From Bacteroidales bacterium (GTDB taxonomy: Bacteria > Bacteroidota > Bacteroidia > Bacteroidales > UBA932): a stretch of DNA of 42,049 nt. Every line of letters starts with the position of its first letter. Positions within the stretch are counted from its first letter, which is position 1. Made by a program: the position numbers and the translations under genes. Of this stretch, positions 755 through 13,436 are shown piece by piece. Below the pieces are notes generated by a model. The model saw only the letters and a program-made list of their open reading frames with translations, did not search any database and was not told the DNA's origin. Where the stretch lies: contig JAFZVQ010000027.1 of the NCBI GenBank assembly GCA_017617715.1, positions 1 to 42,049 on the forward strand, in the 5' to 3' direction.

Positions 755-2488
755 TTACCAACCAAGCACTGACTGGCGGCTGGAGTAGGGTTCTGCTTCG
801 GCCGCTGTCAGTTGGCGGCCATAGCTGTTGCGGGAGGCGGACAGGGGTGCGCCGCCAAGGTCGGTGCTGCCATATTCGCGCCAGCCGGCTGTGGCCGTGG
901 GCACTGCCGGAGTGGGTGCGGGATTGGCAAACCAGCCTGCGGAAGCTATGACGGGCGACATCTTGCAGCCAATGTAGGTCACATTATCCGATTTCGTGGT
1001 GTCGCCGCCTGAACGGGCGAGATACATCGAGCCGTCCTTCACGCCGCTTTCTGCGGTGAGCTTGCAGTTCAGGAACACGAATCCCTTGTGCGAGGCGCTT
1101 TCTATGCGGGCCTGCACTATATAGCCTCCTGCGCGGGACCGTATTTCGCAGTCCTCGAACAGGCAGGCTTCCGGATAGCCCCAGATGTAGTCCACATGGC
1201 CGGCAATCAAGGTGTTGTGTACCCAGACCTTGCCTTTTGTCAGGAAGGTGTCCTGCCACGAAAGTAGACTGCAGCTTTCTATGACCATCTTGCCTGCGGA
1301 ATTGAAATAAATGGCTTCCGCCTGCCCCTTTTGCCCGCCGAAACTGTTCTCGAGAGTGAGGCTCTCTATCCTGAGGTTGTCGCTGTTGTTGATGAGGAAA
1401 AGTCCGCGTCCGCCAGGCGTGACTACCTGTGCTCCCCTGGATGGGAGAGAACTGGTGCTTGAGCCCGTGCCGGAGCAGTAGCTCTCGTTGTTGGGGTAGG
1501 AAATGACGGTGCCGCCTGCCGATGCTCCTTTGATCGTGATATTGCCCTTGTCGTACAGGAACAGCATCTCATTGAAGACGCCTTTCCCTATTTCGACGGT
1601 GACTTCGGCGTTCTTGTCGAGCGAGGATGCATGTGTCAGGGCGCCCTGCACTGTGCAGAAGTCGCCGCTTCCGTCCTGGAGCACGCTGAATACCGGCCCG
1701 GCAGGCCTGGATTTGGTGCTGAAGGTCCATTCGTCCTTCCCGACTGCCTTGCCGGCCACGCTCTGGTCCACTGTCACGTAGTAGCTCTTCCCGAAATCGA
1801 GGGCTCCGTTGTGGAGCTTTATTTCCAGCTTGTTGCCTTTGATCCGCAGGGGAGTGTAATGCTCTATGCGATAGCGTTTTCCGGACTGTATCGCGTCCAT
1901 GAAGCTGTTGAACTTGCTGTCCTTCCCGAGGGGCTCCTTGGGAATCATGCAGCCGTCTTCGCGTATGGTCACTCCGGCAAGGTCGGCGAGGTCTATCCTG
2001 TCCACTTCCTTGCCGTCCCGGGTGAACACCTTGATGCAGCCGCTGCTGCCCAGAGTCGGAGCGGAGTCCAGTCCGAGCACAAGCGGAGCGTCGATGCACT
2101 GGACTTTCCCTTCCGGCACGTCGGGCTGCTGGCTGCCCGGGGTGGTGAAATCCAGGCTGCTGAATTCCGAATTGCATTCGGAGTTGCGGCTGCGGACGCT
2201 GAAGGTGTAGGCCGTGCCAGGCTTGAGGCCTTCTACGGTGACGTTCCGTTTGGTCTCATTGCCCGATTTCGCGGTCCCGGCGCCTTCAAGCACTTTCCAC
2301 TCATAGGATGTCGCCCCTTCCACAGGATTCCACTGCATGGTCACGGAGTTCTCGGTGAGTCCCTTGACCGTCAGGCCCTCCGGTGCGGCAAGGGCAACGG
2401 GAGTATCCGGATTGTCCGGCTGCCCGCAGCCGGGACTAAGTATCCCGGCCGCGATGCAGAGGGCAAGCAGTTTAAAAGGTAGTCTCAT
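755..2488 (-). CDS. Multidomain CE8 pectin methylesterase lipoprotein
   Basis: 577 aa. Probably removes methyl esters from homogalacturonan at the cell surface. The signal peptide ends in lipobox SPGC (Cys21). Residues 36-117 form an FN3 domain, about 121-262 an Ig-like beta domain, and 263-577 the pectinesterase beta-helix. CE8 key residues are present though their surroundings are changed: Gln389, QDT at 412-414, Asp433 in DYIWG (usual DFIFG) and Arg492 in YLARSG (usual LGRPW). This makes it a divergent but probably active esterase, unlike the canonical CE8 at 25122-26138. Its FN3 domain closely resembles the one on the lyase at 22091-23941. It is the last gene of the minus-strand run, two bases after the transporter gene. 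The family is firm; activity is inferred from the retained residues. Confidence 0.85.
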   Translation of the reverse strand: MRLPFKLLALCIAAGILSPGCGQPDNPDTPVALAAPEGLTVKGLTENSVTMQWNPVEGATSYEWKVLEGAGTAKSGNETKRNVTVEGLKPGTAYTFSVRSRNSECNSEFSSLDFTTPGSQQPDVPEGKVQCIDAPLVLGLDSAPTLGSSGCIKVFTRDGKEVDRIDLADLAGVTIREDGCMIPKEPLGKDSKFNSFMDAIQSGKRYRIEHYTPLRIKGNKLEIKLHNGALDFGKSYYVTVDQSVAGKAVGKDEWTFSTKSRPAGPVFSVLQDGSGDFCTVQGALTHASSLDKNAEVTVEIGKGVFNEMLFLYDKGNITIKGASAGGTVISYPNNESYCSGTGSSTSSLPSRGAQVVTPGGRGLFLINNSDNLRIESLTLENSFGGQKGQAEAIYFNSAGKMVIESCSLLSWQDTFLTKGKVWVHNTLIAGHVDYIWGYPEACLFEDCEIRSRAGGYIVQARIESASHKGFVFLNCKLTAESGVKDGSMYLARSGGDTTKSDNVTYIGCKMSPVIASAGWFANPAPTPAVPTATAGWREYGSTDLGGAPLSASRNSYGRQLTAAEAEPYSSRQSVLGW

Positions 2489-2490
2489 TT

Positions 2491-3972
2491 TTAAATCTCC
2501 ACGGGCTTGTATTTAGGCACGAGGGATTTCATTATGGACCAGGCGATTATGTAGGCCAGGCCGCAGAAGCAGAACATGATGAAGTAGCCTGCGGGCTTGC
2601 CTTCGAAACCGAGGAAGGTGAAGGCCGCACCCTGCGATTCTGCATAGGTGAAAAGGTTGCCGGCGACTTTCTGGATGATCATGGAGCCCAGGCCTCCCGC
2701 CATTGCGCCTATACCCGTAATGGATGCTATGGTGCTCTTCGGGAACATGTCACCGATAGTGGAGAAGAGGTTGGCGCTCCATGCCTGATGGCCCGCTCCG
2801 GCGAGGCCGATCAGGATGGCCGGCCACCAGGGGGAGTCGAAGCGTATGCCAAGGGGCTGCGCGAAAAGGGCGGCCAGGGGGAAGAACGCGAATATGAGCA
2901 TGGCAAGCATACGTCCGGCATAGGGATTCATGCCTTTCTTGTCCACGAACACCTTGGGCAGGTAGCCGCCTCCGATGGAAATCACCGTCACTATCAGATA
3001 AAGGGTGAAAATCAGCCATTGTCCCAACGGCGAGGTGGCCGGGGCATGGAACTGGTTGCTAAAGTAGGAAGGCGCCCAGAACAGGAAGAACCACCACACG
3101 CCGTCGGTGAAGAACTTGCCTACGATGAACGACCAGGTCTGCCTGTACTTGAAGCACTTGATGAAGGGGATGGAAGGAGATTCTTCGCTGGCGCTCGGAA
3201 TGACAGGGGAGGAGGCGTCATGGCCGGCTTGACCGGCCATCTCTGCGTCATCCTGGTGGATGTAGGCGAGTTCGGCTTCATTGACTCTCTTGCTCTTCTC
3301 GGGCTTGTCGTACATGAAGGCCCAGAAAAACATCCAGATGAAGCCAAGTCCGCCGATGATGATGAATGCCCATTCCCAGCCGAACTTGAGGGCAAGCGGC
3401 GGGATAAGCAGCGGGGCGGCCAGTGCACCGACGGAAGCGCCGGCGTTGAAGATGGACGTAGCGAAAGCGCGGTCCTTCTTGGGGAAGTATTCGGCAGTGA
3501 CCTTGATGGCGGCCGGGAAGTTGCCGGCCTCGCCGAGAGCCAGTATGCCGCGGCAAAGCAGGAACAGGTACACCGAAGTGGTGGACACGGCCAGGGCGGC
3601 ATTGGATCCGATCTCAACAGCGCGCATGGCGGCGACGGAGCCGAAACCGGCGATGTGGGCTGTGGCCCAGCCGCAGGCTGCGTGGAGGCAGGCGCCCGCC
3701 GACCACACGCCTATGGCGATAAGGTAGCCCTTCTTGGTGCCCATCCAGTCCACGAACTTGCCTGCGAAGAGGCAGCAGATGGCGTAGAAGATGGAGAAGA
3801 AACTGGTGATGGTGCCATAGTTGGCATCGGTCCAGTGGAACTCGGGCTTTATGAACTCCTCATAAGTGAGGGACAATACCTGCCTGTCGAGGTAATTGAC
3901 GGTGGTGGCCACGAAAAGCAGGCTGCAGAGCCACCAGCGCCAGTTTGTCATTAATTTAGTTTGTGTACTCAT
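2491..3972 (-). CDS. exuT: ExuT-type hexuronate MFS transporter
   Basis: 493 aa inner-membrane major facilitator protein with about 12 hydrophobic segments. It begins with the NYLDRQVLSL motif of the anion:cation symporter family, which contains hexuronate transporters, and has GEAGNFPAAIK and DWMGTKKGY. It should import galacturonate or related uronates for UxaC, UxaB and UxaA, encoded beside it. The central cytoplasmic loop between TM6 and TM7 carries an unusual stretch at about residues 244-265 (EMAGQAGHD ... VIPSASEES), written by two short palindromic repeats at 3179-3204 and 3217-3243. It starts 4 bases after uxaB and ends 2 bases before the CE8 gene. Substrate is inferred from family and neighbours. 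Confidence 0.88.
   Translation of the reverse strand: MSTQTKLMTNWRWWLCSLLFVATTVNYLDRQVLSLTYEEFIKPEFHWTDANYGTITSFFSIFYAICCLFAGKFVDWMGTKKGYLIAIGVWSAGACLHAACGWATAHIAGFGSVAAMRAVEIGSNAALAVSTTSVYLFLLCRGILALGEAGNFPAAIKVTAEYFPKKDRAFATSIFNAGASVGALAAPLLIPPLALKFGWEWAFIIIGGLGFIWMFFWAFMYDKPEKSKRVNEAELAYIHQDDAEMAGQAGHDASSPVIPSASEESPSIPFIKCFKYRQTWSFIVGKFFTDGVWWFFLFWAPSYFSNQFHAPATSPLGQWLIFTLYLIVTVISIGGGYLPKVFVDKKGMNPYAGRMLAMLIFAFFPLAALFAQPLGIRFDSPWWPAILIGLAGAGHQAWSANLFSTIGDMFPKSTIASITGIGAMAGGLGSMIIQKVAGNLFTYAESQGAAFTFLGFEGKPAGYFIMFCFCGLAYIIAWSIMKSLVPKYKPVEI
3179..3204. repeat. Short dispersed repeat inside exuT (type 1)
   Basis: A 26-base copy of the GATTCTTCGCTG...GAATGAC element also found at 11481-11505, 11658-11682 and 13390-13414. 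It has one extra G and one changed base. On the coding strand it reads VIPSASEES, a different frame from the uxaA copies, and leaves the exuT frame open. Confidence 0.8.
3217..3243. repeat. Palindromic repeat inside exuT (type 2)
   Basis: A perfect 8-base inverted repeat, ATGGCCGG and CCGGCCAT around a 5-base loop, flanked by GTC and CTC. It is read in frame within the exuT central loop as EMAGQAGHD. It has the same 8+5+8 design as the element at 24908-24932. It lies 12 bases from a type 1 repeat, so the two form a compound insert. Confidence 0.75.
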
Positions 3973-3976
3973 GGGA

Positions 3977-5416
3977 TCAGATTATTGCTTTGACTGCGGA
4001 ACGCATACCTTCAAGTTGTATCAGTGTGAGGGCTTTCGCCAGAAGCCTCTGCAGGCCGGGAATGGCGCGGAGGTCTTCGCCCCAGATGAATTCGGCGCCA
4101 AGCACGCCGTCCGCCACCTTGGCCGGATCTTCGGTGGCCCAGAGCTCCTGCAGGAGCCCGGTGATCTTCGGGTCGTCGTTGGGCACTATTTCATCGTTGC
4201 CCCTCTTGCCGCCCTTGTAGTAGGTGCAGATGCCGGCAAGGCCGAGCACCAGTCCCACGGGAAGTTCGCCCTTGCGCTCCAGATAGGTCTTGAGGCCGGG
4301 GAGGTCGCGGGTCTTGAACTTGGGGAAGGAGTTGAGCATGATGGAAGTCACGAAGTGCTTGACGAATGGATTGCGGAAGCGCTCCATCACGTCGGCGGCG
4401 AATTTCTCCAGCTCTTCTTTCGGGAGGTTGAGGGTGGGGAGAAGCTCGTCGAACATCACCTTGTGGACGAATTTTCCCACTTCCGGATCCTCGCAGCACT
4501 GCTTCACGGTGTCGAGGCCGGATAGGTAGCCGACAGGGGAGAGCACGGTGTGGGGACCGTTGAGGAGGGTGACCTTGCGCTCGTGGTAGGGCGCCTCGCT
4601 GGGCACGAAGAGCACGTTGAGGCCGGCCTTGTCGGCGGGGAACTCTGCGGCGACTTCCTTCGGGGCCTCGATGACCCAGAGGTGGAATATTTCAGCCTTG
4701 TCGAGGAGGTTGTCCTGGTAGCCCACCCTTTCGCAGAGCTGGGCGGCGGTGTCGCGGGGGTAGCCCGGAACTATGCGGTCCACCAGCGTGCTATAGACTC
4801 CGCAGCTCTCTTCGAACCACGTGCGGAAGCCTTCAGGAAGCTGCCAGAGGTCGATGTACTGCTCGATGCACTCCTTCAGGTGCTTGCCGTTTTCGAAAAT
4901 AAGCTCGCAGGGGAAGATGATGAATCCCTTGGTCTTGTCGCCTTTGAAGAACTCCCAGCGGTGGTAAAGCAGCTGGGTCAGCTTGCCGGGATAGGAAGAT
5001 GCGGGGGCGTCGTCCAGCTTGCATGCCGGGTCGAACGCTATGCCGGCTTCGGTGGTGTTGGATATCACGAAGCGCATCTCCGACTGCTCGGCAAGTTTCA
5101 GGTAGGCCTCGAAATCCTCGTAAGGATTAATTCCACGGCTGATTACGTCGATGAGGTCCACGCTGTCCACGGGTTCTCCGTTCTGGAGGCCCTGGAGATT
5201 GAGGTGATAGAGGCCGTCCTGCTCGTTGAGCCAGCCGACCATTCCCTTTTCAATGGGCTGGACCACCACGACAGAACCGTTGAAAGCGGTCTTCTGGTTG
5301 GTTTTCCAAATAATCCATTCAATGAAGGCACGAAGGAAGTTGCCTTCTCCGAACTGAATGACTTTTTCTGTGTAGCGTTTCGCCTGGGGGGCGGAAGTAC
5401 GGTTTAATTTTTCCAT
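3977..5416 (-). CDS. uxaB: Tagaturonate reductase (altronate oxidoreductase)
   Basis: 479 aa, the usual length for UxaB. Member of the polyol-specific long-chain dehydrogenase (mannitol dehydrogenase) family; reduces D-tagaturonate to D-altronate with NADH in the cytosol. The N-terminal nucleotide-binding motif QFGEGNFLRAF and the following VVQPIEKG are typical, and LLNGPHTVLSP and the C-terminal helical domain match. It is the second step after UxaC and feeds UxaA, both encoded upstream in the same run. It begins 12 bases after the PL1 lyase gene and ends 4 bases before exuT. The relative mannonate oxidoreductase UxuB is the main alternative; pairing with uxaA and no uxuA in the window favours UxaB. 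Confidence 0.92.
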   Translation of the reverse strand: MEKLNRTSAPQAKRYTEKVIQFGEGNFLRAFIEWIIWKTNQKTAFNGSVVVVQPIEKGMVGWLNEQDGLYHLNLQGLQNGEPVDSVDLIDVISRGINPYEDFEAYLKLAEQSEMRFVISNTTEAGIAFDPACKLDDAPASSYPGKLTQLLYHRWEFFKGDKTKGFIIFPCELIFENGKHLKECIEQYIDLWQLPEGFRTWFEESCGVYSTLVDRIVPGYPRDTAAQLCERVGYQDNLLDKAEIFHLWVIEAPKEVAAEFPADKAGLNVLFVPSEAPYHERKVTLLNGPHTVLSPVGYLSGLDTVKQCCEDPEVGKFVHKVMFDELLPTLNLPKEELEKFAADVMERFRNPFVKHFVTSIMLNSFPKFKTRDLPGLKTYLERKGELPVGLVLGLAGICTYYKGGKRGNDEIVPNDDPKITGLLQELWATEDPAKVADGVLGAEFIWGEDLRAIPGLQRLLAKALTLIQLEGMRSAVKAII

Positions 5417-5428
5417 CAGTTATGTTGT

Positions 5429-8400
5429 TTATTCTGTTTCTTTTACGATTACCAGGAGCAGGGCCTGTTCGGCGCTTTTCTGCTTGATTGTGTATCCCTT
5501 GCCCTTCTCGAGAGCGAGTTCGCCGGAGTCTCCGGCCGTGTCGTATGGGACAGGGAATTCCTGTGCGGTGCCTCCGTCCGGAACGATCTGGATCTTTGCA
5601 GTGTCGGCTGAGCTCGACCTTCGGATGAACCAGAACCGGACCGTAGAGTTGAATGTGGCGGAAGTGGTGAAGGAAAGCGCACCTGAACTGTTCAGCTTGA
5701 GCCCCTTGGTCGAAGAGTAATCCCCGATGGTCCAGGGATTGAAGTTCTGGGAGTAATCCTTGCTCAGATCGGTCTTCGCACTTGCGGTGAAATAGCTTCC
5801 CTGAACTCCGTCTGTGAGGTTCTGGGCCACGCTGGAAGAGTCGTAGTAGAACACGTGGGTGTGTGCTTTGTCGTCGCCGGTGCCGGATCCTGAAGGATCG
5901 TCGGGGTCATCCTGGCCGGGATCTGTCGGGTCGTCGCCGGTGCCGTTGAATTCGGTGATGCCGCCGTTGTTGACGGCAACCGGGGCCGAAGTCCAGCCGA
6001 GCTTCCCGTAGCCTGCATTTGCTTTCACTACCTCGGGTACGTCCGCCGCCGCAGTGACGGTGTAGTCGTAGGCGGGCTTGAAGTCGCTGTAGGTCAGGGG
6101 AGTAACAGTGCTTCCGTTGTAGGAGGTGTACTGTACGTTGCTCAGCGGGTACGGGTCTTTAGCCTTTGCAGGACGGTTCTTATACACGTTCTGCGTGGGG
6201 TAAAGATAACCGGCCACGGAGCCCTGGAGGTTGGACTCATTGCTCTCCTTTGCCGGATACGTGCAGATATCCGTGGGCAGTTGCACGCCGTCGAAGCAGT
6301 TGTATTCCACCAGCACCTTTGCGCCGTAGGCGGAACCCACTCCGTAGGTGGTGCACCCGTCGAACAGGTTGTTGTAGACGTGGGCGGTGCCGAAGCGCAC
6401 GCGGGGATGGCGGGAAGACGACTGGTCGAACCAGTTGTGGTGGAAGGTGGCTGTGATGGCCACGTCGCCGCTCTGGCTGTTGGAGTGCCCGACAAGGCAG
6501 GATTTCTGCGTCTTGACGTAGTGGCACCAGCTCACGGTCACGTTCTTGCTGCCGTGGGTGATGTCGGTGGAGCCGTCTTCGTAGTCCTTGGTCTGGTTGA
6601 GGGACGTGAAGGTGCAGTGGTCTACCCACACACCGTCGCATTCCTGCATGCTCACGGCGTCGGCGCCGTTGTTGGCCTTGGGCTGCTGGAAGTTGATGTT
6701 GCGGATTATTATGTTGCTTGCGCGCACGCAGAACAGTCCTATGCGGTCCATCACGAACCCGTCGGTGCCGTAGAAACTGAGGTTGCTGACTTCTTTCACG
6801 TCGAACCAGGGATGCCCTTCGCTGAAGTCACGTCCGTCGGATGGACCGAAGGTGCCGCTGAGCCATATGATCACGGGACTGTGGTCACCCTTCTTTTCCG
6901 ATTTGGCACGCGCGAGCAGCCAGGTCTGGAGGGCCTTGCCGTTGTCGAAGTGCAGCACGTTGGCTGAAGTTGCCCCTTCGCCTCCCGTGACGCTCCGGGC
7001 AAAGCCGTAAAGCATTGTGGGATCAACGGTTGCGGCCTGCGGCGGGGTGGTGCATTCGAGCTCGGCGGATGATGCCGGCACGTCGGGATCATCGGGAGTG
7101 CCGGGGTCGTCGTTCCCGCCGCTGCTTGCTCCGGGGGTGTACTCCAGCTTGTAGATTCTGAGCGGCCCGCCTGTGCAATAGATGTAGACGTCGCCGGCGC
7201 TCACGTTGAACGCGCATTCAGCCTTGGTGCCGTTGGAAGGCCCGCCGGCTTCAATGGAACTCTCCGAACCGCCCGAGAGAACGCTGACCGAGCGCCCTGA
7301 GGCGGTGCTGGAGCCGGTGTTAGTGGCCCAGACCTTGAGCAGCCCGTTGCCGGTGGCGGTGAACTTGAAGTAGCAGTCCGAAGATGAGCCGGCAAGTGCC
7401 ATCTGGAAGCAGTCCGTGCGGAACTTGCCCTTTGATGCGACAATGGTCAATCCGTCGTAGCTCATATTGAATGGTTCCTTCCAGGTGTCGTTGGAACCGA
7501 CTTTCTTGAATTCGGTCTGCCAGGCTGAGGATGAGAAGTCCCAGGTCACGGGCTCTCCGAGCTGGGAGGCGTCGGTGATGTCGCTGTCTGAGATGTTGAA
7601 CGTCAGGGTGTTGACCACGTTCGGCCTGAATTCGATGTCGCTGCTGAGGGTGGCGGAGCGGCTGATCAGCATATTGCTGTCGTCGGTTTCCACGTCCAGG
7701 GTCAGCCTGGAGCCTGCCGGGAGGGTGGTCGGATTGAGGATCACGAACACTCCGGTGCTGCTGTCTGCCGTCCAGTCGTCGCCGGAATACATGGCTTTGA
7801 CATAGTTCTGCTGCGACTTGCTTTCCCAGCCGTCGATGGCGGCGGTGGTGATGTCCACGCGCACTTCTCCGCTCAGCGTCGCTGCTGAAGACTTTAGGCT
7901 TACGCTCCTGATTTTCTTGCCCGAGAGCTTTCCTCCGGAGGTCGCGTCGGCTACGACTATCTTGCTGACAGCCAGAACGCGGTGGAAATGCAGACTGCCG
8001 GCCGCTTCGGCTTTGTTGCCTGATACGGAGACCTGCAGCGCGTCGCTGACCAGCACGTCGGCTTCAGGGTCGAAGGTCGTGAGGCGGGGGAGTTTCTGGT
8101 CCGGGCCGGTGACGAACTTGAAGATATTCTCGCTGCGGTTGGATTTCCTGGGATGGAAGGCGTAGATTGTCTCAGAGCCGTCTTCCGCTTCAATCGAACC
8201 GGAGAAACTGCCGGTAATGCCCTCTCCGCTGCCGTTGGTGAACTTGAAGGCTTTGGAGAGGTCGCCGGAGAGGGTCACGTAGATGGAGTCTGAATCGTCC
8301 CATTTGGGCTGCCAGCCGGATGGCGCCGTCTCGATGAAGGTGCGGGTCTGGGGAAGGTCGGCGGAAAGCGTCATGGCAATCTCGCGGATGCCGGATGGCG

Positions 8401-8482
8401 CGCTTTCCATCAATTCCCGTGGCTGACAGGCCGAAAGCGCCAATGCGACGATGCTCAGGAATGTGATAAATGTCTTTTTCAT
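5429..8482 (-). CDS. Fimbrillin-fused PL1 pectate lyase lipoprotein
   Basis: 1017 aa. Predicted surface lipoprotein (lipobox LSAC, Cys19) that cleaves polygalacturonate by beta-elimination. Order of parts: a fimbrillin-like beta domain (about 28-300), a carbohydrate-binding-like beta-sandwich (about 310-455), a low-complexity linker rich in Asp, Pro and Gly, a PL1 beta-helix (about 480-840) and a final beta domain (about 875-1017). PL1 marks are WVDHCTF near residue 620 and SRHPRVRFG near 690, which holds the catalytic Arg. The last domain resembles the C-terminus of the non-catalytic protein encoded at 8634-10256, and the N-terminal domains also match. A 45-aa ORF lies 12 bases upstream. The fusion of a fimbrillin-like domain to a lyase is unusual; the enzyme class is secure. 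Confidence 0.88.
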   Translation of the reverse strand: MKKTFITFLSIVALALSACQPRELMESAPSGIREIAMTLSADLPQTRTFIETAPSGWQPKWDDSDSIYVTLSGDLSKAFKFTNGSGEGITGSFSGSIEAEDGSETIYAFHPRKSNRSENIFKFVTGPDQKLPRLTTFDPEADVLVSDALQVSVSGNKAEAAGSLHFHRVLAVSKIVVADATSGGKLSGKKIRSVSLKSSAATLSGEVRVDITTAAIDGWESKSQQNYVKAMYSGDDWTADSSTGVFVILNPTTLPAGSRLTLDVETDDSNMLISRSATLSSDIEFRPNVVNTLTFNISDSDITDASQLGEPVTWDFSSSAWQTEFKKVGSNDTWKEPFNMSYDGLTIVASKGKFRTDCFQMALAGSSSDCYFKFTATGNGLLKVWATNTGSSTASGRSVSVLSGGSESSIEAGGPSNGTKAECAFNVSAGDVYIYCTGGPLRIYKLEYTPGASSGGNDDPGTPDDPDVPASSAELECTTPPQAATVDPTMLYGFARSVTGGEGATSANVLHFDNGKALQTWLLARAKSEKKGDHSPVIIWLSGTFGPSDGRDFSEGHPWFDVKEVSNLSFYGTDGFVMDRIGLFCVRASNIIIRNINFQQPKANNGADAVSMQECDGVWVDHCTFTSLNQTKDYEDGSTDITHGSKNVTVSWCHYVKTQKSCLVGHSNSQSGDVAITATFHHNWFDQSSSRHPRVRFGTAHVYNNLFDGCTTYGVGSAYGAKVLVEYNCFDGVQLPTDICTYPAKESNESNLQGSVAGYLYPTQNVYKNRPAKAKDPYPLSNVQYTSYNGSTVTPLTYSDFKPAYDYTVTAAADVPEVVKANAGYGKLGWTSAPVAVNNGGITEFNGTGDDPTDPGQDDPDDPSGSGTGDDKAHTHVFYYDSSSVAQNLTDGVQGSYFTASAKTDLSKDYSQNFNPWTIGDYSSTKGLKLNSSGALSFTTSATFNSTVRFWFIRRSSSADTAKIQIVPDGGTAQEFPVPYDTAGDSGELALEKGKGYTIKQKSAEQALLLVIVKETE

Positions 8483-8494
8483 CGCTGCAATGGG

Positions 8495-8632
8495 CTAAAA
8501 TGTGTATTCTTCTCCTCCGGTGAGCACATCTCCCGCACCGTCATCGGTCAGGTCACTGCCCCCGAGCAGGGCAGTGGCCTCACAGATGATGTCGTATTCG
8601 CAGCATGGGGCTGCGTATGGGAATGTTTTCAT
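8495..8632 (-). CDS. Small 45-aa ORF before the PL1 lyase
   Basis: 45 codons from ATG (8632-8630) to TAG (8497-8495). Begins MKTFPYAAPCCEYD, has LLGGSDLTDDGAGD in the middle and ends GGEEYTF. No signal peptide or known domain is visible. It fills the whole gap between the fimbrillin/BACON-like gene (stop at 8634) and the PL1 gene (start 8482). It resembles the 43-aa ORF at 10270-10401 in size, position and pattern: a Y.AP..E start, an acidic Gly/Ser middle and an aromatic last residue after E-x-T. Both precede a fimbrillin-like lipoprotein gene. Function unknown; repeated placement and likeness argue that it is translated. Confidence 0.65.
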   Translation of the reverse strand: MKTFPYAAPCCEYDIICEATALLGGSDLTDDGAGDVLTGGEEYTF

Positions 8633-8633
8633 C

Positions 8634-10256
8634 TTAGAAAGTCTCTACTACTTCAATGTAGAACAGTCCGACTTCTCCGGATTTGTTGAATTTGTAATCG
8701 GTGCCTTTATCGAGATTCACGACGCCTGAATCATAGATTGTCCCGAGGGTCATTGTCGCGTTCACGATATTCGAGCTTCCCTTCTGCAGTTTGATGACCC
8801 CGTCCTTGTTGGACTGACGTTTGGCTGCGAAGAAGCGGATGGTGGTCGCGGCGCTCGAATGGGTGGTGAAGCTGACGTTATTGCTGCCGTCGATTTTCAT
8901 GGCGTGTGAATAGGTGTTGCCGAGAATGGTGAAGCTGTCCACGGCGAAATAACCGCTTGCGGAGCAATCGAGTATGCTTGTGCCCGTGACGGTGAAATAC
9001 GTTCCGGCCTGGCCGTCCTGGGTCTGGACAACATTCTTTTCATTGTCGATGTAGAATGTGTAGGTGTGGGAGGCTGCGGCGCCCGGGGCTGCCTGGGTGA
9101 GGGTCATAGTGGCCGTAGCGGCAATCTGGGTGTTGTCGGAAGCGTTGTAGTAGGTGAAGGTGATGGTCGCGCTGCGCGGCTCGGTGCCGGTGTTGGCATC
9201 GGTGGTGTAGAAATACAGGTTGCCGCTGGTGCCCATGTCAACGTAGTCATTTGAATGCAGCATCAGCCAGTCTGCACCGGCGTCCCTTCTTGAGCCGACT
9301 ATATATCCGGGAATGGGGTTGACTATCTTGAACGGTATCATGGCCTGGCCAAGTATGGCTTTGTCGGCTTCGATGAGCATGTCATCGACGAGGATTTCGG
9401 GCTCGAAACTCACGGTCGGGCTGCCTAGATCGTAGATCTTGCCGGAAGCGAGGGATACGCTTGTCAGGGATTTGGTGGTGATGGAAGCGGCGGTATCATC
9501 CGTCCGGGTGAAGGTCAGCTTGAGGTCGCCGCAGTTGGACTGCTTGGTCAGTACGGGAAGATAGTAGGTGGAACCGTTCTTGAATCCTCCGCTGCAGGTG
9601 AAGTCCATAAAGTTCTTGGCGCCGTTCACCTGGAAGGTTGCACCTGTGGACATGGTGTAGATGGGACGTCCACCGAGGCGGGCTCCGCCGGATACTTCGA
9701 CGTGGATGGCCTTGATGTCATCCATTGCCATGGTGATCTTAAGATATGCGGCGCCGTGGCGGAACGACAGGACGTTGCCGGAGGCAGCATCGGCTACGGC
9801 TGTCATGAACGCACCGGCGGTGGGAAAGCCTGCCTCGACGGCTTCCTGGGTGGTGACGACCTGGTCGATCACGAGCTGGCCGAGGTCGAGGGCCCAGCGG
9901 TTGCCTTTGGTGTCTGTCTCTTCGGGGCGGATGGCCACGTTGGGATAAAGTGCGTAGAATTCGGTTTCGGAGGCGTCGGTGTCGGCTATGGAGCCGCTGA
10001 ATTTGGCATTTGCGGTGCCTGCGCCTTCGGTTAGGGTGAAGGTGTACTGTTTGCCTGATGTCTTGGCGATGACGTTGATTTCATCTCCGGTGGACCAGAC
10101 TACAGACTTGGTGCCGGAGAGTTCGGTCTTGGTGTCGGGTGCGTTGACGGTGAAGGTCTTGGTGACCATTTTTCCGGTTTCGGGGGCGACTTCCTTGTTG
10201 CAGGAGACGGCGAGCAGCGAAAGTGCTGCGATGGTGAATGCGATAATCTTTTTCAT
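8634..10256 (-). CDS. Fimbrillin/BACON-like non-catalytic surface lipoprotein
   Basis: 540 aa from the ATG at 10256. A longer frame opens at 10331, but its extra 25 residues overlap the upstream small ORF and lack a signal peptide; from 10256 a signal with lipobox AVSC (Cys19) appears at once. A strong Shine-Dalgarno AAGGAGG at 10271-10265, eight bases away, supports this start. Parts: a fimbrillin-like N-terminal domain; a BACON-like Ig domain in the middle (FYTTDANTGTEPRSATITF); and a C-terminal beta domain starting HTYTFYID shared with the PL1 lyase. No lyase or hydrolase fold is visible. Probably a surface pectin-binding protein in the role usually held by SusE/F or SGBP proteins; that role is inferred from domains and context. 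Confidence 0.78.
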   Translation of the reverse strand: MKKIIAFTIAALSLLAVSCNKEVAPETGKMVTKTFTVNAPDTKTELSGTKSVVWSTGDEINVIAKTSGKQYTFTLTEGAGTANAKFSGSIADTDASETEFYALYPNVAIRPEETDTKGNRWALDLGQLVIDQVVTTQEAVEAGFPTAGAFMTAVADAASGNVLSFRHGAAYLKITMAMDDIKAIHVEVSGGARLGGRPIYTMSTGATFQVNGAKNFMDFTCSGGFKNGSTYYLPVLTKQSNCGDLKLTFTRTDDTAASITTKSLTSVSLASGKIYDLGSPTVSFEPEILVDDMLIEADKAILGQAMIPFKIVNPIPGYIVGSRRDAGADWLMLHSNDYVDMGTSGNLYFYTTDANTGTEPRSATITFTYYNASDNTQIAATATMTLTQAAPGAAASHTYTFYIDNEKNVVQTQDGQAGTYFTVTGTSILDCSASGYFAVDSFTILGNTYSHAMKIDGSNNVSFTTHSSAATTIRFFAAKRQSNKDGVIKLQKGSSNIVNATMTLGTIYDSGVVNLDKGTDYKFNKSGEVGLFYIEVVETF

Positions 10257-10264
10257 GATCGTGT

Positions 10265-10272
10265 CCTCCTTA
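10265..10272 (-). promoter_or_regulatory. Strong Shine-Dalgarno overlapping a stop codon
   Basis: The sequence TAAGGAGG merges the TAA stop of the 43-aa ORF (10272-10270) with AAGGAGG, eight bases before ATG 10256. Bacteroidetes genes usually lack Shine-Dalgarno sites, so this decides the start of the lipoprotein gene and suggests termination-reinitiation coupling with the small ORF. Confidence 0.75.
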
Positions 10273-10401
10273 CCATGTGATTGTGATTTCGCTGTCTTCC
10301 AGCTCGGGAATTCCGCCGGTCGGGCTCTCAATGAGGAAACTGAGGGCGTTCTCAGTTTCGAGCCATTCTGCCTGAGGAGCAGTGTAGCGTGTTTTTGTCA
10401 T
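10270..10401 (-). CDS. Small 43-aa ORF before the fimbrillin/BACON lipoprotein
   Basis: 43 codons from ATG (10401-10399) to TAA (10272-10270). Begins MTKTRYTAPQAEWLETENAL and ends LEDSEITITW. It lies in the gap between uxaA (stop at 10430) and the lipoprotein gene at 10256. No signal peptide, membrane segment or known domain is seen; it is acidic toward the C-terminus. It pairs in form with the 45-aa ORF at 8495-8632. Its stop codon is part of the Shine-Dalgarno of the next gene, so translation through it would affect the neighbour. It may be a coupling leader, a chaperone-like partner or a small structural protein; none can be chosen from sequence. Confidence 0.65.
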   Translation of the reverse strand: MTKTRYTAPQAEWLETENALSFLIESPTGGIPELEDSEITITW

Positions 10402-10429: not shown

Positions 10430-11959
10430 TTACAGTGTGACTCCGCTTTTGAAAATGGCTATTTCGCGATAGCCGCTGGCTTCTGCGCGCACGGGCTCTC
10501 CGCTGGCGGCGGCAAGCACCGCATCGATGAAACGGGGAGCCACTTCCTCCATCGGGGAGTCCTGTGCAAGCACTCCGGCATTGAAATCTATCCAGCCGGG
10601 TTTGTTCTCAAACAGGGGGGTGTTGGTGCTTATCTTCATTGTGGGTACGAAGCTGCCGAAAGGGGTGCCGCGGCCAGTGGTGAAGAGCACTATCTGGCAT
10701 CCTGCGGCACCGAGGGCCGTGCTGGCCACGAGGTCGTTGCCGGGGGCGCTCAGCAGGTTCAGACCATTGACGCTCAGGCGCTCTCCGTATTTCAGCACGC
10801 CGCGCACAATGCTCTTGCCGCACTTCTGCGTGCAGCCGAGGCTCTTTTCTTCCAGGGTGCTGATACCGCCCGCCTTGTTGCCGGGGGAGGGGTTCTCATA
10901 CACCGGCATGCCCTGAGCGATGAAGTACTCTTTGAAGTCGTTGATGAGGTTCACCGTCTTGTCGAAAGTGGCCCTGTCCTGGCAGCGGTTCATAAGTATG
11001 GTCTCTGCGCCGAACATTTCGGGCACCTCAGTGAGCACCGTAGTGCCGCCCCGGGCCACGAGCCAGTCGGAGAACACTCCCAGCAGGGGATTGGCGGTGA
11101 TGCCGCTCAGACCGTCGGAACCGCCGCATTTCAGGCCGACGCGCAGCTCGCTCACGGGCACCTCGGTGCGGACGTCCTTGCTCACTGTGGCGTAGATCTC
11201 ACGCAGCTGCTGCAGCCCGTACTCGATTTCGTCGCCGACTTTTTGCGTGGCGAACATGCGCACCCGGGATTCATCCACCGGGCCCACAAGCTCGCGGAAG
11301 GCGTCCAGCTGGTTGTTTTCGCAGCCCAGGCTCACCACCAGCACGCCTCCGGCGTTGGGGTGGTGCACCATGTCGGCGAGGATGGTACGGGTGTTCTCAT
11401 GGTCGGTGCCCAGCTGCGAGCAGCCGTAGTTGTGCGGGAACGCGATTATGGCGTCGACGGAAGATTCTTCGCTGCAATCAGATTCTTCGCTGCGCTCAGA
11501 ATGACAGATCTCCGCGTTGAAGCGGTCGGCGAGCTGCTGGCAGATGCCGTTCACGCAGCCGACAGTGGGGATGATCCATATCTGGTTACGGATACCTACC
11601 TGACCGTCAGAACGCCGGAAACCGAGGAATGTGCGGTCAGATTCTTCGCTGCTTTCAGATTCTTCGCTGCGCTCAGAATGACAGAACAGCGGCTCGTACT
11701 TATATTCAAGCAGGCCTTCCAGGTTGGTCTTGATGCAGGAATGGTCGATCAGCGTGCCGGAGGCGGCATCCCGGGCCACGTGCCCGACAGGGTAGCCGTA
11801 CTTAATCACGTTATCCCCGGCCTTCAGGCCCTTCAGCAACACCTTGTGCCCACGTGGCACCGATTCCTGCAGCACCACTCCTTCCACTACCTCTCCAGCC
11901 GCCAGGTCCTGCAGCGCCACCGCTACATTATCATCTTTATTGATCTTTATGTACTTCAT
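10430..11959 (-). CDS. uxaA: Altronate dehydratase with two repeat-encoded inserts
   Basis: 509 aa. Dehydrates D-altronate to 2-keto-3-deoxygluconate in the cytosol. The N-terminal SAF domain starts MKYIKI-KDDNVAVAL, followed by the large catalytic domain with GCVNGI, NYGCSQLG, SLGCENNQ, CGGSDGLSGITANP, PSPGNKAGG and C-terminal IAIFKSGVTL, very close to the E. coli enzyme. Two stretches are foreign to the family: about residues 93-107 (CHSERSEESESSEES) and 152-166 (CHSERSEESDCSEES). Both are written by the same 43-base compound repeat, at 11640-11682 and 11463-11505, and sit in linker positions between conserved blocks, so activity is probably kept. The start overlaps the uxaC stop in TGATG, suggesting coupled translation. 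Confidence 0.95.
   Translation of the reverse strand: MKYIKINKDDNVAVALQDLAAGEVVEGVVLQESVPRGHKVLLKGLKAGDNVIKYGYPVGHVARDAASGTLIDHSCIKTNLEGLLEYKYEPLFCHSERSEESESSEESDRTFLGFRRSDGQVGIRNQIWIIPTVGCVNGICQQLADRFNAEICHSERSEESDCSEESSVDAIIAFPHNYGCSQLGTDHENTRTILADMVHHPNAGGVLVVSLGCENNQLDAFRELVGPVDESRVRMFATQKVGDEIEYGLQQLREIYATVSKDVRTEVPVSELRVGLKCGGSDGLSGITANPLLGVFSDWLVARGGTTVLTEVPEMFGAETILMNRCQDRATFDKTVNLINDFKEYFIAQGMPVYENPSPGNKAGGISTLEEKSLGCTQKCGKSIVRGVLKYGERLSVNGLNLLSAPGNDLVASTALGAAGCQIVLFTTGRGTPFGSFVPTMKISTNTPLFENKPGWIDFNAGVLAQDSPMEEVAPRFIDAVLAAASGEPVRAEASGYREIAIFKSGVTL
11463..11505. repeat. Compound type 1 repeat in uxaA (second insert)
   Basis: A full 25-base element (11481-11505, GATTCTTCGCTG...GAATGAC) preceded by an 18-base partial copy (GATTCTTCGCTGCAATCA). 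In the uxaA frame it reads CHSERSEESDCSEES. The same compound layout recurs 134 bases away in the gene. Confidence 0.88.
11640..11682. repeat. Compound type 1 repeat in uxaA (first insert)
   Basis: An 18-base partial copy (11640-11657) followed by a full 25-base element (11658-11682). In the uxaA frame it reads CHSERSEESESSEES. It differs from the other uxaA copy only in the few bases joining the two parts. Confidence 0.88.
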
Positions 11960-13374
11960 CAGAAATTAAAGTAATTCTTGGCGTTGTTGTAGCTGATGTC
12001 TTCCACCATCTTGCCGATGAAATCAAGTTCGCTGGCAGGGAGCTTGCCCTCTTCGATATCGCGCCCGAGCAGGTCGCACAAAATGCGGCGGAAATACTCG
12101 TGGCGGGGATAGGAAATGAATGAACGGCTGTCCGTGAGCATGCCCACGAAACGGCTCAGCAAGCCGAGCACACTCAGCGCGTTCATCTGCTTACGCATGC
12201 CGTCCTCCTGGTCCAGGAACCACCAACCGCTGCCGAACTGCATCTTGCCGGGCACCGTGCCGTCGTTGAAAGTGTAAGCCATAGTCATCATCACCTCGTT
12301 ATCCTTGGGATTGAGGCAATAAAGGATAGTCTTCGCCAGCTTGTCGCATGACGCCAGCCTGTCGAAGAACCTATGTCCGGCTGCCGCCGTGGGCAGGTCG
12401 TGAATGGCATCGTAGCCCGTGTCGGGACCCACGAGACCGAACATCTTGCTGTTGTTGTTGCGGATGGCACCGATATGGAACTGCTGCGCCCAGCCGGCCT
12501 CTGCGTCCATGACGGCCTGGTCGAAGAGGAACGCGCTGCGGAACTTCTCCAGCTCGCGCGGCCCCGGCGCTATGCCCATGAGCACCTTCTTGAAGATGAG
12601 CTCAATTTCAAGCTCCTTGTAATCAGCTGCATAGAAAGTCTCGAGGCCGTGGTCGGAGAGTTTGCAGCCGTTGGCCGCGAAATAATCATGCCTTATCTTC
12701 AGCGCCTCCTGCAGGTCGGCGTAGGAATCTATCTCTTTGCCTGCGGCCTCTCCAAGCACCTTCAAATACTCTTTATAAGGGACGGGATTCTCAATCGCCA
12801 TAGCCTTGTCGGGCCTCCATGCAGGGATGACGCGCGTGCCGAAAGGCTTTTCGGCAATCATCTTGTGCCAGCGCAGGTCGTCGGCCGGGTCGTCGGTGGT
12901 GCAGACCACCTCCACCCCGAATTTGCGTATCAGCGCCTGGCCGCGGAATTCCGGAGTCGCCAGCTTGGCATTGCATTCTTCGAAGATTTCGCGGGCGGTG
13001 GCAGGGGAGAGGAGCTTGTCTATGCCGAAAACGCGACTCAGCTCCAGGTGGGTCCAGTGGTAGAGAGGGTTGCGCATCGTGAAGGGCACAGTTTCGGCCC
13101 ATTTCTCGAAGGTTTCCCACGCGCTGTGCTTGCCGCCGGTGAGATAATCCTCGCTCACTCCGTTCGCACGCATGGCGCGCCATTTATAATGGTCGCCGTA
13201 GTGGCCGTCCACCAGCCAGAGCTGGGTGATGTCGCGGAACTGTATGTTCTCCGCTATTTGCTGCGGCACGAGGTGGCAGTGGTAGTCGATGATGGGCATG
13301 CCCTCGGCATGTTCGTGGTAAAGCTTGCGGGCGGTTTCCGTCTGCAGCATGAAGTCTTTGTGGATAAAGCTCAT
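11959..13374 (-). CDS. uxaC: Uronate isomerase
   Basis: 471 aa, the normal family length. Isomerizes D-galacturonate to D-tagaturonate (and D-glucuronate to D-fructuronate) in the cytosol, the entry step of the saturated uronate branch. Amidohydrolase-fold metal site at the N-terminus in DYHCHL (30-35). Other family blocks are CTTDDPADDLRWH, SWRPD-like AWRPDKA, HIGAIRNNNSKMF, GSGWWFLDQEDGM and a C-terminal SYNNAKNYF. It precedes uxaA with overlapping stop and start codons. Its leader of about 96 bases, the longest gap in the minus-strand run, holds a type 1 repeat and a strong hairpin, so expression may be set apart from the SusCD genes upstream. Confidence 0.95.
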   Translation of the reverse strand: MSFIHKDFMLQTETARKLYHEHAEGMPIIDYHCHLVPQQIAENIQFRDITQLWLVDGHYGDHYKWRAMRANGVSEDYLTGGKHSAWETFEKWAETVPFTMRNPLYHWTHLELSRVFGIDKLLSPATAREIFEECNAKLATPEFRGQALIRKFGVEVVCTTDDPADDLRWHKMIAEKPFGTRVIPAWRPDKAMAIENPVPYKEYLKVLGEAAGKEIDSYADLQEALKIRHDYFAANGCKLSDHGLETFYAADYKELEIELIFKKVLMGIAPGPRELEKFRSAFLFDQAVMDAEAGWAQQFHIGAIRNNNSKMFGLVGPDTGYDAIHDLPTAAAGHRFFDRLASCDKLAKTILYCLNPKDNEVMMTMAYTFNDGTVPGKMQFGSGWWFLDQEDGMRKQMNALSVLGLLSRFVGMLTDSRSFISYPRHEYFRRILCDLLGRDIEEGKLPASELDFIGKMVEDISYNNAKNYFNF

Positions 13375-13389
13375 ATATTGTGTTATTTA

Positions 13390-13414
13390 GATTCTTCGCT
13401 ACGCTCAGAATGAC
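13390..13414. repeat. Type 1 dispersed repeat in the uxaC leader
   Basis: A 25-base copy of the GATTCTTCGCTG...GAATGAC element with one changed base (ACGCTC for GCGCTC), lying 15 bases upstream of the uxaC start. Together with the hairpin 22 bases further on it forms a compound intergenic insert. Confidence 0.85.
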
Positions 13415-13436
13415 AAATGGATTCTGGTAATTGGGA

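Follow-up and report, generated by a model that had tools for sequence, protein, structure and literature searches.

Small open reading frames before fimbrillin-like lipoprotein genes of a Bacteroidales pectin locus: likely precursors of a leader-guided peptide system

Linear polyphosphorylated peptides (LPPs), a group of ribosomally synthesized and post-translationally modified peptides (RiPPs), were reported in 2026 from Bacillota, with the lpp cluster of Paenibacillus alginolyticus (PMC13381572). The core parts of such a system are SpI, a discrete RiPP recognition element (RRE), an HprK-like kinase, a nucleoside triphosphate (NTP) transferase and an MsbA-like transporter; LppK phosphorylates Ser3 of the LPP core, and LppS cuts off the leader with help from the RRE (PMC13381572). 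The same report gives the LPP leader consensus as YxxPxVLxHQxIxFETxxS, with the Ser at Y+18, and the motif bound by discrete lasso-peptide RREs as [Y/W]xxPx[L/V/I/F/A]. It calls LPPs restricted to Bacillota, and its main text contains no word beginning with "Bacteroid" (PMC13381572). Two related small open reading frames (ORFs) are examined here, each directly before a fimbrillin-like lipoprotein gene in a 42,049-nucleotide stretch of a Bacteroidales genome (contig JAFZVQ010000027.1), hereafter the window. Small ORFs 1 and 2 are likely to encode RiPP precursors whose leader is bound by an RRE and which mature in trans before export.

The likeness to LPP systems extends to the enzymes (a discrete RRE, a SpI-like leader peptidase, an HprK-like kinase, an MsbA-like exporter and, in some clusters, a nucleotidyltransferase) and to the precursors, which have a YxxP leader, a more variable C terminus and a Ser at a similar distance from the Tyr. 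LPP clusters contain one to three precursors, whereas the genome of the window carries about 30 dispersed precursors and two enzyme clusters; here, moreover, the host belongs to Bacteroidota and the precursors are tied to surface lipoproteins. The paeninodin-type phosphorylated lasso peptides likewise combine a YxxP/WxxP leader with a discrete RRE and an HprK-like kinase. They differ in the protease, which is signal-peptidase-like here, and no macrolactam synthetase or B2 protease was noticed in the neighborhoods displayed, for which no profile search aimed at them was made. The fimbrillin fold is common to type V (FimA/Mfa) pilins and the modeled N terminus of partner lipoprotein 1, whereas the partners here continue into other domains. 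Bacteroidetes GG-leader/peptidase-containing transporter (PCAT) and graspetide precursors are described as likewise small, with several graspetide precursors per locus (PMC10352776, PMC8939145). Both types were set aside because their leader type and enzymes differ and because Pfam and NCBIfam scans of 101 of our precursors returned no significant family. In the literature searched, whose coverage left out most subscription papers and preprints, no description of such a system in Bacteroidota was found.

The two small ORFs and their family

Both ORFs lie on the minus strand and were found where the sequence-only reading had put them. Leader and core limits below are predicted, those of the leaders from a family position table.

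10270-10401, minus strand: small ORF 1, putative RiPP precursor peptide of 43 aa (MTKTRYTAPQAEWLETENALSFLIESPTGGIPELEDSEITITW)
10336-10401, minus strand: putative leader of ORF 1, residues 1-22, with Y6xxP9xxE12
10273-10335, minus strand: putative core of ORF 1, residues 23-43, acidic, with Ser26 and a C-terminal Trp
10265-10272, minus strand: TAAGGAGG, stop codon of ORF 1 fused with a Shine-Dalgarno-like site of the lipoprotein gene
8495-8632, minus strand: small ORF 2, putative RiPP precursor peptide of 45 aa (MKTFPYAAPCCEYDIICEATALLGGSDLTDDGAGDVLTGGEEYTF)
8567-8632, minus strand: putative leader of ORF 2, residues 1-22, with Y6xxP9xxE12
8498-8566, minus strand: putative core of ORF 2, residues 23-45, with Ser26

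The Y-x-A-P-x-x-E start claimed for both ORFs and the fused stop codon at ORF 1 are present. The E-x-T-aromatic end, also claimed for both, holds for ORF 2 (EYTF) and only loosely for ORF 1 (SEITITW).

An orthologous locus was recognized in four Bacteroidales metagenome-assembled genomes, of which three derive from the omasum or rumen of yak or water buffalo; these are four of the five loci returned, the fifth (L170) being left out with a match of 28 residues only. Small ORF 1 was retained in 4/4 of these loci and small ORF 2 in the 3/3 that reach it, the contig of L167 stopping short. In two of the loci (L166 and L168), an extra lipoprotein is inserted, each with its own small ORF (57 and 54 aa). 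In every computable pair, dN was below dS: 0.21 to 0.37 against 0.49 to 2.04 in 10/10 pairs of ORF 1, and 0.34 to 0.58 against 1.79 to 3.21 in the 4/6 pairs of ORF 2 with a computable dS, which is there near saturation. Conservation among orthologues was higher in the leader than in the core of ORF 1 (0.74 and 0.55) and higher in the core than in the leader of ORF 2 (0.58 and 0.43), where the stretch SDLTDDGAGD..EYTF is largely kept. Small ORFs 1 and 2 are real genes, kept at orthologous positions and evolving under purifying selection.

Searches of 149 genomes of the same taxonomic family with single sequences returned, besides the query itself, only matches at E > 0.01, among which L003, L012 and L020 stood out as short frames preceding lipoprotein genes. 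A 5-seed profile retrieved further short frames in that family, and a 101-row profile gave precursor matches at E <= 0.01 in 60/149 family genomes. The source genome yielded 30 matches with this profile, which were listed in part; the precursors inspected there number 27. At E < 1e-3, the family profile found 173 matches in 1.63 Mb of DNA, training sequences and overlapping loci included, and the reversed profile found none. Chance ORFs in intergenic gaps would account for the shortness of the frames and for the missing family match in the libraries used; this explanation is contradicted by conservation, namely by the orthologues, the dN and dS values and the reversed profile (0 against 173), and its probability is negligible.

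A set of 117 rows (116 unique peptides) was hand-chosen from three search rounds. Dropped were nitroreductase frames (L057, L058, L063), long TonB-like frames (L117, L119), matches with internal stops (e.g., L004, L011, L120, L124), and partial, doubtful or duplicate rows, some possibly real (e.g., L049, L054, L099, L104, L108, L113, L118, L123). A local profile added 30 frames beyond this set, at least five of them false; six from the source genome joined the covariation set described below, and seven joined profile A8. The consensus of the 116 peptides is K..Y-x-[AS]-P-x-[IVCTMA]-E-[VIL]-[VIL]-E-[VIL]-x-[VL]-E-x-[GA]-[IFL]-[ALC]-x-[S] followed by an acidic stretch, with a mean length of 47 aa and a mean net charge of -4.5. 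The anchoring Tyr (115/116) and Pro (116/116) partly reflect how the rows were selected. Glu occurred at Y+6 in 79 and at Y+13 in 74 peptides; Y+5 was I, V, A or L in 64; a Ser fell within Y+17 to Y+21 in 112 (Y+19 in 70, Y+20 in 43); and 93 had an aromatic residue among the last four. The best NCBIfam match among the 101 precursors scanned was the paeninodin family lasso peptide, for one member and not significant (E 0.017). By their sequence features, small ORFs 1 and 2 belong to a large unannotated family with a YxxPxxE leader, a Ser at about Y+19/20 and an acidic core.

Enzymes that accompany the family

The source genome (G000; labels beginning with G, C and L are ours for genomes, contigs and loci) is a draft assembly with 86 contigs, a total length of 2.32 Mb and a completeness of 76.6%. 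Two clusters in it (G000:C27:2353-5546 and C64:12341-15583) encode an HprK-like kinase, an archaeal-type signal-peptidase-like (SpI-like) protease, a discrete PqqD/RRE protein and an MsbA-like ATP-binding cassette (ABC) exporter. They lie on contigs other than that of the window, and the inspected precursors are dispersed. The C27 cluster consists of the following genes.

C27, 2353-3243: kinase
C27, 3236-3661: protease
C27, 3658-3927: PqqD protein
C27, 3924-5546: ABC exporter

Cluster order and completeness differ among genomes, and a nucleotidyltransferase is added in some (PF14907 with E 1.5e-36 in G234; by sequence likeness also in G166, G375 and G489). The kinase motifs SGTGKSTH (P-loop), NDD and PWSGKT were invariant in 13 aligned rows, as were S33, H71 and D86 of the protease in 10. 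The best NCBIfam model for the protease was archaeal-type signal peptidase TIGR02228 (E 1.5e-6 and 2e-6, below the curated cut-off), and its matches among structures were SEC11C/SEC11A (E 3e-5 and 5.6e-5). PqqD (PF05402) was detected above cut-off in 16/17 genomes, the source genome included. The sole match of the PqqD profile in the Protein Data Bank (PDB) at E <= 0.1 was TfuB1 (6jx3, E 1e-6), which we take to be a lasso-peptide RRE; the best NCBIfam matches were lasso PqqD models, below their curated cut-offs. For the exporter, PF00664/PF00005 were above cut-off, and MsbA TIGR02203 (E 8.7e-74 and 1.1e-61) was the second or third best NCBIfam model, below cut-off.

The small-ORF family co-occurs and is operon-linked with this LPP-type enzyme set. 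Among 344 genomes of the order, the kinase (E <= 1e-10) was present in 24/32 small-ORF-positive and 25/312 negative genomes (Fisher p 6.6e-17 with all 32 small-ORF matches, 2.7e-20 with five clear false ones moved); for kinases at E < 1e-60 only, the counts, read from lists, were 19/32 and 3/312. Among the 149 family genomes, it was present in 52/60 precursor-positive and 7/89 negative genomes (Fisher 9.7e-24), and in 32/33 of those with at least three precursors. The 12 kinase-bearing genera of this family are, as read from lists, the same 12 of 25 that bear precursors. Across 267 genomes of the phylum, precursors were found in two, the source genome (the starting point) and G489; these were also the two with a close kinase (E < 1e-60), and distant kinases (E 5.9e-12 to 9.2e-23) occurred in seven more.

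Linkage was seen in several gene rows. The row in G166 runs precursor, kinase, protease, PqqD, nucleotidyltransferase-like gene and ABC gene; that in G375 is the same with a lipoprotein after the precursor, and in G049 a precursor and lipoprotein stand directly behind the enzyme cluster. The single-contig genome G489 belongs to the same class and carries eight precursors; directly after each comes a protein of 553 to 659 aa, with a lipoprotein-like start in the rows read. One pair is followed by PqqD and kinase, another by PqqD and a nucleotidyltransferase-like gene. It is thus very likely that the small ORFs encode the precursors of this RRE, kinase, protease and exporter system. A separate arrangement was observed in a distant family of the order (L191, G237:C99, 8098-12565). 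PqqD stands first there, and the row continues with a YxxP small ORF, then a kinase-like gene and the genes for an S24-like peptidase and for an ABC transporter.

Several points weigh against the precursor assignment. The Fisher values take no account of shared ancestry. No kinase was detected in 8/60 precursor-positive family genomes, among them G021, G033 and G051, which are 96 to 99% complete, and no precursor in 7/59 kinase-positive ones; three order genomes with a close kinase (G030, G225, G328) had no small ORF at E <= 0.1. The PqqD count covers only genomes picked as small-ORF-bearing, and the HprK/PEPCK model matches of the kinase were weak and below cut-offs. In the neighborhoods viewed, no nucleotidyltransferase was seen beside the two clusters of the source genome, a further difference from LPP systems. 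Finally, agreement with the LPP leader consensus is limited to YxxP, a tendency toward a hydrophobic residue at +5 and a Ser placed one or two residues further on; for this reason, the small ORFs are likened to LPPs and not filed among them.

Lipoprotein partners and the peptide core

8634-10256, minus strand: partner lipoprotein 1, 540 aa, lipobox Cys19
9396-10175, minus strand: fimbrillin fold of partner 1, residues 28-287 (predicted structure)
9093-9278, minus strand: BACON domain of partner 1, residues 327-388 (Pfam PF13004, above cut-off)
8637-9077, minus strand: pectin-binding (CBM77-like) domain of partner 1, residues 394-540
5429-8482, minus strand: partner lipoprotein 2, 1017 aa, with pectate lyase (PF00544)

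Pairing with lipoproteins bearing a fimbrillin-like N-domain is regular. In the source genome, 27/27 inspected precursors stand before a lipoprotein gene; these are no random draw: most are profile-found, L092 emerged only when the region before a PF13149 gene was inspected, the second of L134 is a weak match (E 0.14), and the two of L130 share one lipoprotein. The latter two lie in succession (G000:C15, 5409-5552 and 5556-5696), with the single lipoprotein gene after them. Across genomes, an automatic rule found a lipoprotein downstream in 88/117 curated rows at a median gap of 15 nt; the gap is 13 nt for ORF 1 and 12 nt for ORF 2. These counts strongly support the proposal, made from the window alone, that a small-protein family is dedicated to lipoproteins with a fimbrillin fold. 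By the same rule, 29/117 rows had no lipobox gene at -60 to +160 nt downstream. Two of these do have one by eye (G000:C57:125986 and G096:C15:8585), L168 reaches the contig end, 12 are rows from two genomes of family f111 and come directly after a large protein gene, and the others are mixed.

The N terminus of partner 1 was modeled with a fimbrillin fold at low confidence (mean pLDDT 55.6), and the N-domains of the partners resemble fimbrillin-group lipoproteins of the same genome. Profiles of the partners, run against PDB sequences, were uninformative. The C-terminal parts are varied: a Pfam scan of 67/68 proteins, a 2232-aa one being left out for size, found pectate lyase, CBM77-like, leucine-rich repeat (LRR), immunoglobulin (Ig)-like and other domains. 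A small ORF stands beside only 3/8 PF13149 matches of the source genome, which speaks against a general rule that fimbrillins are paired; 4/5 of the matches lacking one sit in tandem lipoprotein groups. Such groups were observed at L088-L091 (G000:C53, C18).

Similarities of peptide parts and partner N-domains (first 230 residues) were compared by Mantel correlation in 27 pairs of the source genome. The core correlated with the N-domain at r 0.643 and the leader at r 0.307 (both p 0.0002); the partial correlations, with the other part fixed, were 0.601 for the core and 0.117 for the leader, and the core correlated with the remaining protein at -0.305 with the N-domain fixed. After removal of near-duplicates (n=19), the core gave 0.323 (p 0.0008) and the leader 0.035 (p 0.36). 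Across 82 pairs from all genomes, the values were 0.449 and 0.139 (both p 0.002), and smaller source-genome sets agree. Since cores track the N-domain more than leaders do, the mature peptide probably acts on the neighboring lipoprotein; that this cognate lipoprotein is its target is given about even chances. Such a pattern would suit a leader that is shared and recognized by the same enzymes, together with a core matched to the fimbrillin-like domain. Two considerations temper it. With near-duplicates retained, the leader correlates with the N-domain too, so that part of the covariation is due to co-duplication of precursor and gene front, a partial alternative; and some family members stand after, not before, a large protein gene. 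As a separate observation, two tandem precursor/lipoprotein pairs at L126 (minus strand of G000:C27:58000-68000; the first precursor has reverse-complement coordinates 1611-1748 and the second lies downstream of it) have the identical core CESPEGLTEDFGGFEDFTW and leaders that differ at 4/17 positions, and two similar lipoproteins follow.

The position after a large gene is most marked in the two f111 genomes (G258 and G438), where 12/13 precursors directly follow large protein genes, in reversed order relative to the window. This arrangement would suit RiPP precursors whose mature peptide has no lipoprotein partner and is a secreted bacteriocin, a signal or a metal ligand, with adjacency due to co-regulation; the enzyme evidence serves that explanation equally, and the roles of LPPs and paeninodins are stated to be unknown (PMC13381572). 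It is nevertheless unlikely: the 27/27 inspected precursors of the source genome are tied to lipoproteins, cores track the partner N-domain, the lipoproteins inserted in L166 and L168 bring their own precursor, and in some genomes precursor, lipoprotein and enzymes share one operon. Among the peptides of G258 and G438 at these loci (L137, L138, L140, L141, L145, L149, L162-L164, L107), several have SYRNSLWGDDE-like tails.

The short distance to the lipoprotein gene and the fused stop codon of ORF 1 would suit translational coupling, in which the small ORFs would be translated leaders that couple or attenuate expression of the lipoprotein genes. This purpose is not supported, because the amino acid sequence is selected (dN below dS, with a C-terminal half that covaries with the partner), because some members lie in an enzyme operon or after a large gene, and because presence follows the enzyme cluster; it is very improbable. 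Equally improbable is a role as chaperones or assembly factors that stay unmodified in the cytosol and serve fimbrillin-fold lipoproteins. In its favor, each lipoprotein usually has a single small protein, with a core matched to the N-domain, but such a role would explain neither the RRE-type YxxP motif nor why the family co-occurs and is linked with genes for the RRE, the kinase, the protease and the exporter. The role in export or assembly once suggested for the ORFs stands in altered form, in that the peptide itself is probably matured and exported.

Locus setting and proposed pathway

All genes of window segment 755-13374, a pectin-use locus on the minus strand, read in one direction. The remaining genes are listed here.

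11959-13374, minus strand: uronate isomerase
10430-11959, minus strand: altronate dehydratase
3977-5416, minus strand: mannitol-dehydrogenase-type oxidoreductase
2491-3972, minus strand: MFS transporter
755-2488, minus strand: pectinesterase

A 26-bp repeat, GATTCTTCGCTNCGCTCAGAATGACA, occurs in the window in three exact copies (0 expected). Those at 11481-11506 and 11658-11683 lie within the altronate dehydratase ORF as in-frame HSERSEES-like inserts, and the third (13390-13415) is just upstream of the uronate isomerase gene.

Under the RiPP reading, each precursor, adjacent to its lipoprotein gene, would be made together with the lipoprotein, presumably by co-transcription. Its leader, Y-x-[AS]-P with a usually hydrophobic residue, would be the binding site of a discrete PqqD/RRE protein whose gene lies elsewhere in the genome, as motif and co-occurrence suggest. 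The HprK-like kinase would phosphorylate the conserved Ser about 19 to 20 residues past the Tyr, the archaeal-type signal-peptidase-like protease would cut off the leader, and the acidic core of about 20 to 25 residues would be exported by the MsbA-like ABC transporter. Two enzyme clusters would thus serve about 30 dispersed precursors. The core may then act on the fimbrillin-like domain of the neighboring lipoprotein, filling a strand groove, gating display or marking it; the covariation of core and domain supports such action.

Donor-strand exchange operates in type V pili. The data allow, as the boldest reading, that the peptide serves the fimbrillin fold as a soluble donor strand. More generally, and tentatively, a genome-wide pairing code is conceivable: each such fimbrillin-fold surface lipoprotein would have its own matured and phosphorylated peptide, which the shared system exports and which docks on the fimbrillin-like domain, perhaps as a soluble donor strand or a plug that can be removed, thereby controlling the folding, surface display or assembly of enzymes and binding proteins, e.g., pectate lyases.

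The precursor assignment explains a short-ORF family that has no name in the curated libraries used. An LPP-like machine with many precursors, each coupled to a lipoprotein, offers a direct testable hypothesis for the role of such peptides. If true, it would add a RiPP class or new peptide system to Bacteroidales, and in the window peptide maturation would become linked to the degradation of pectin at the surface.

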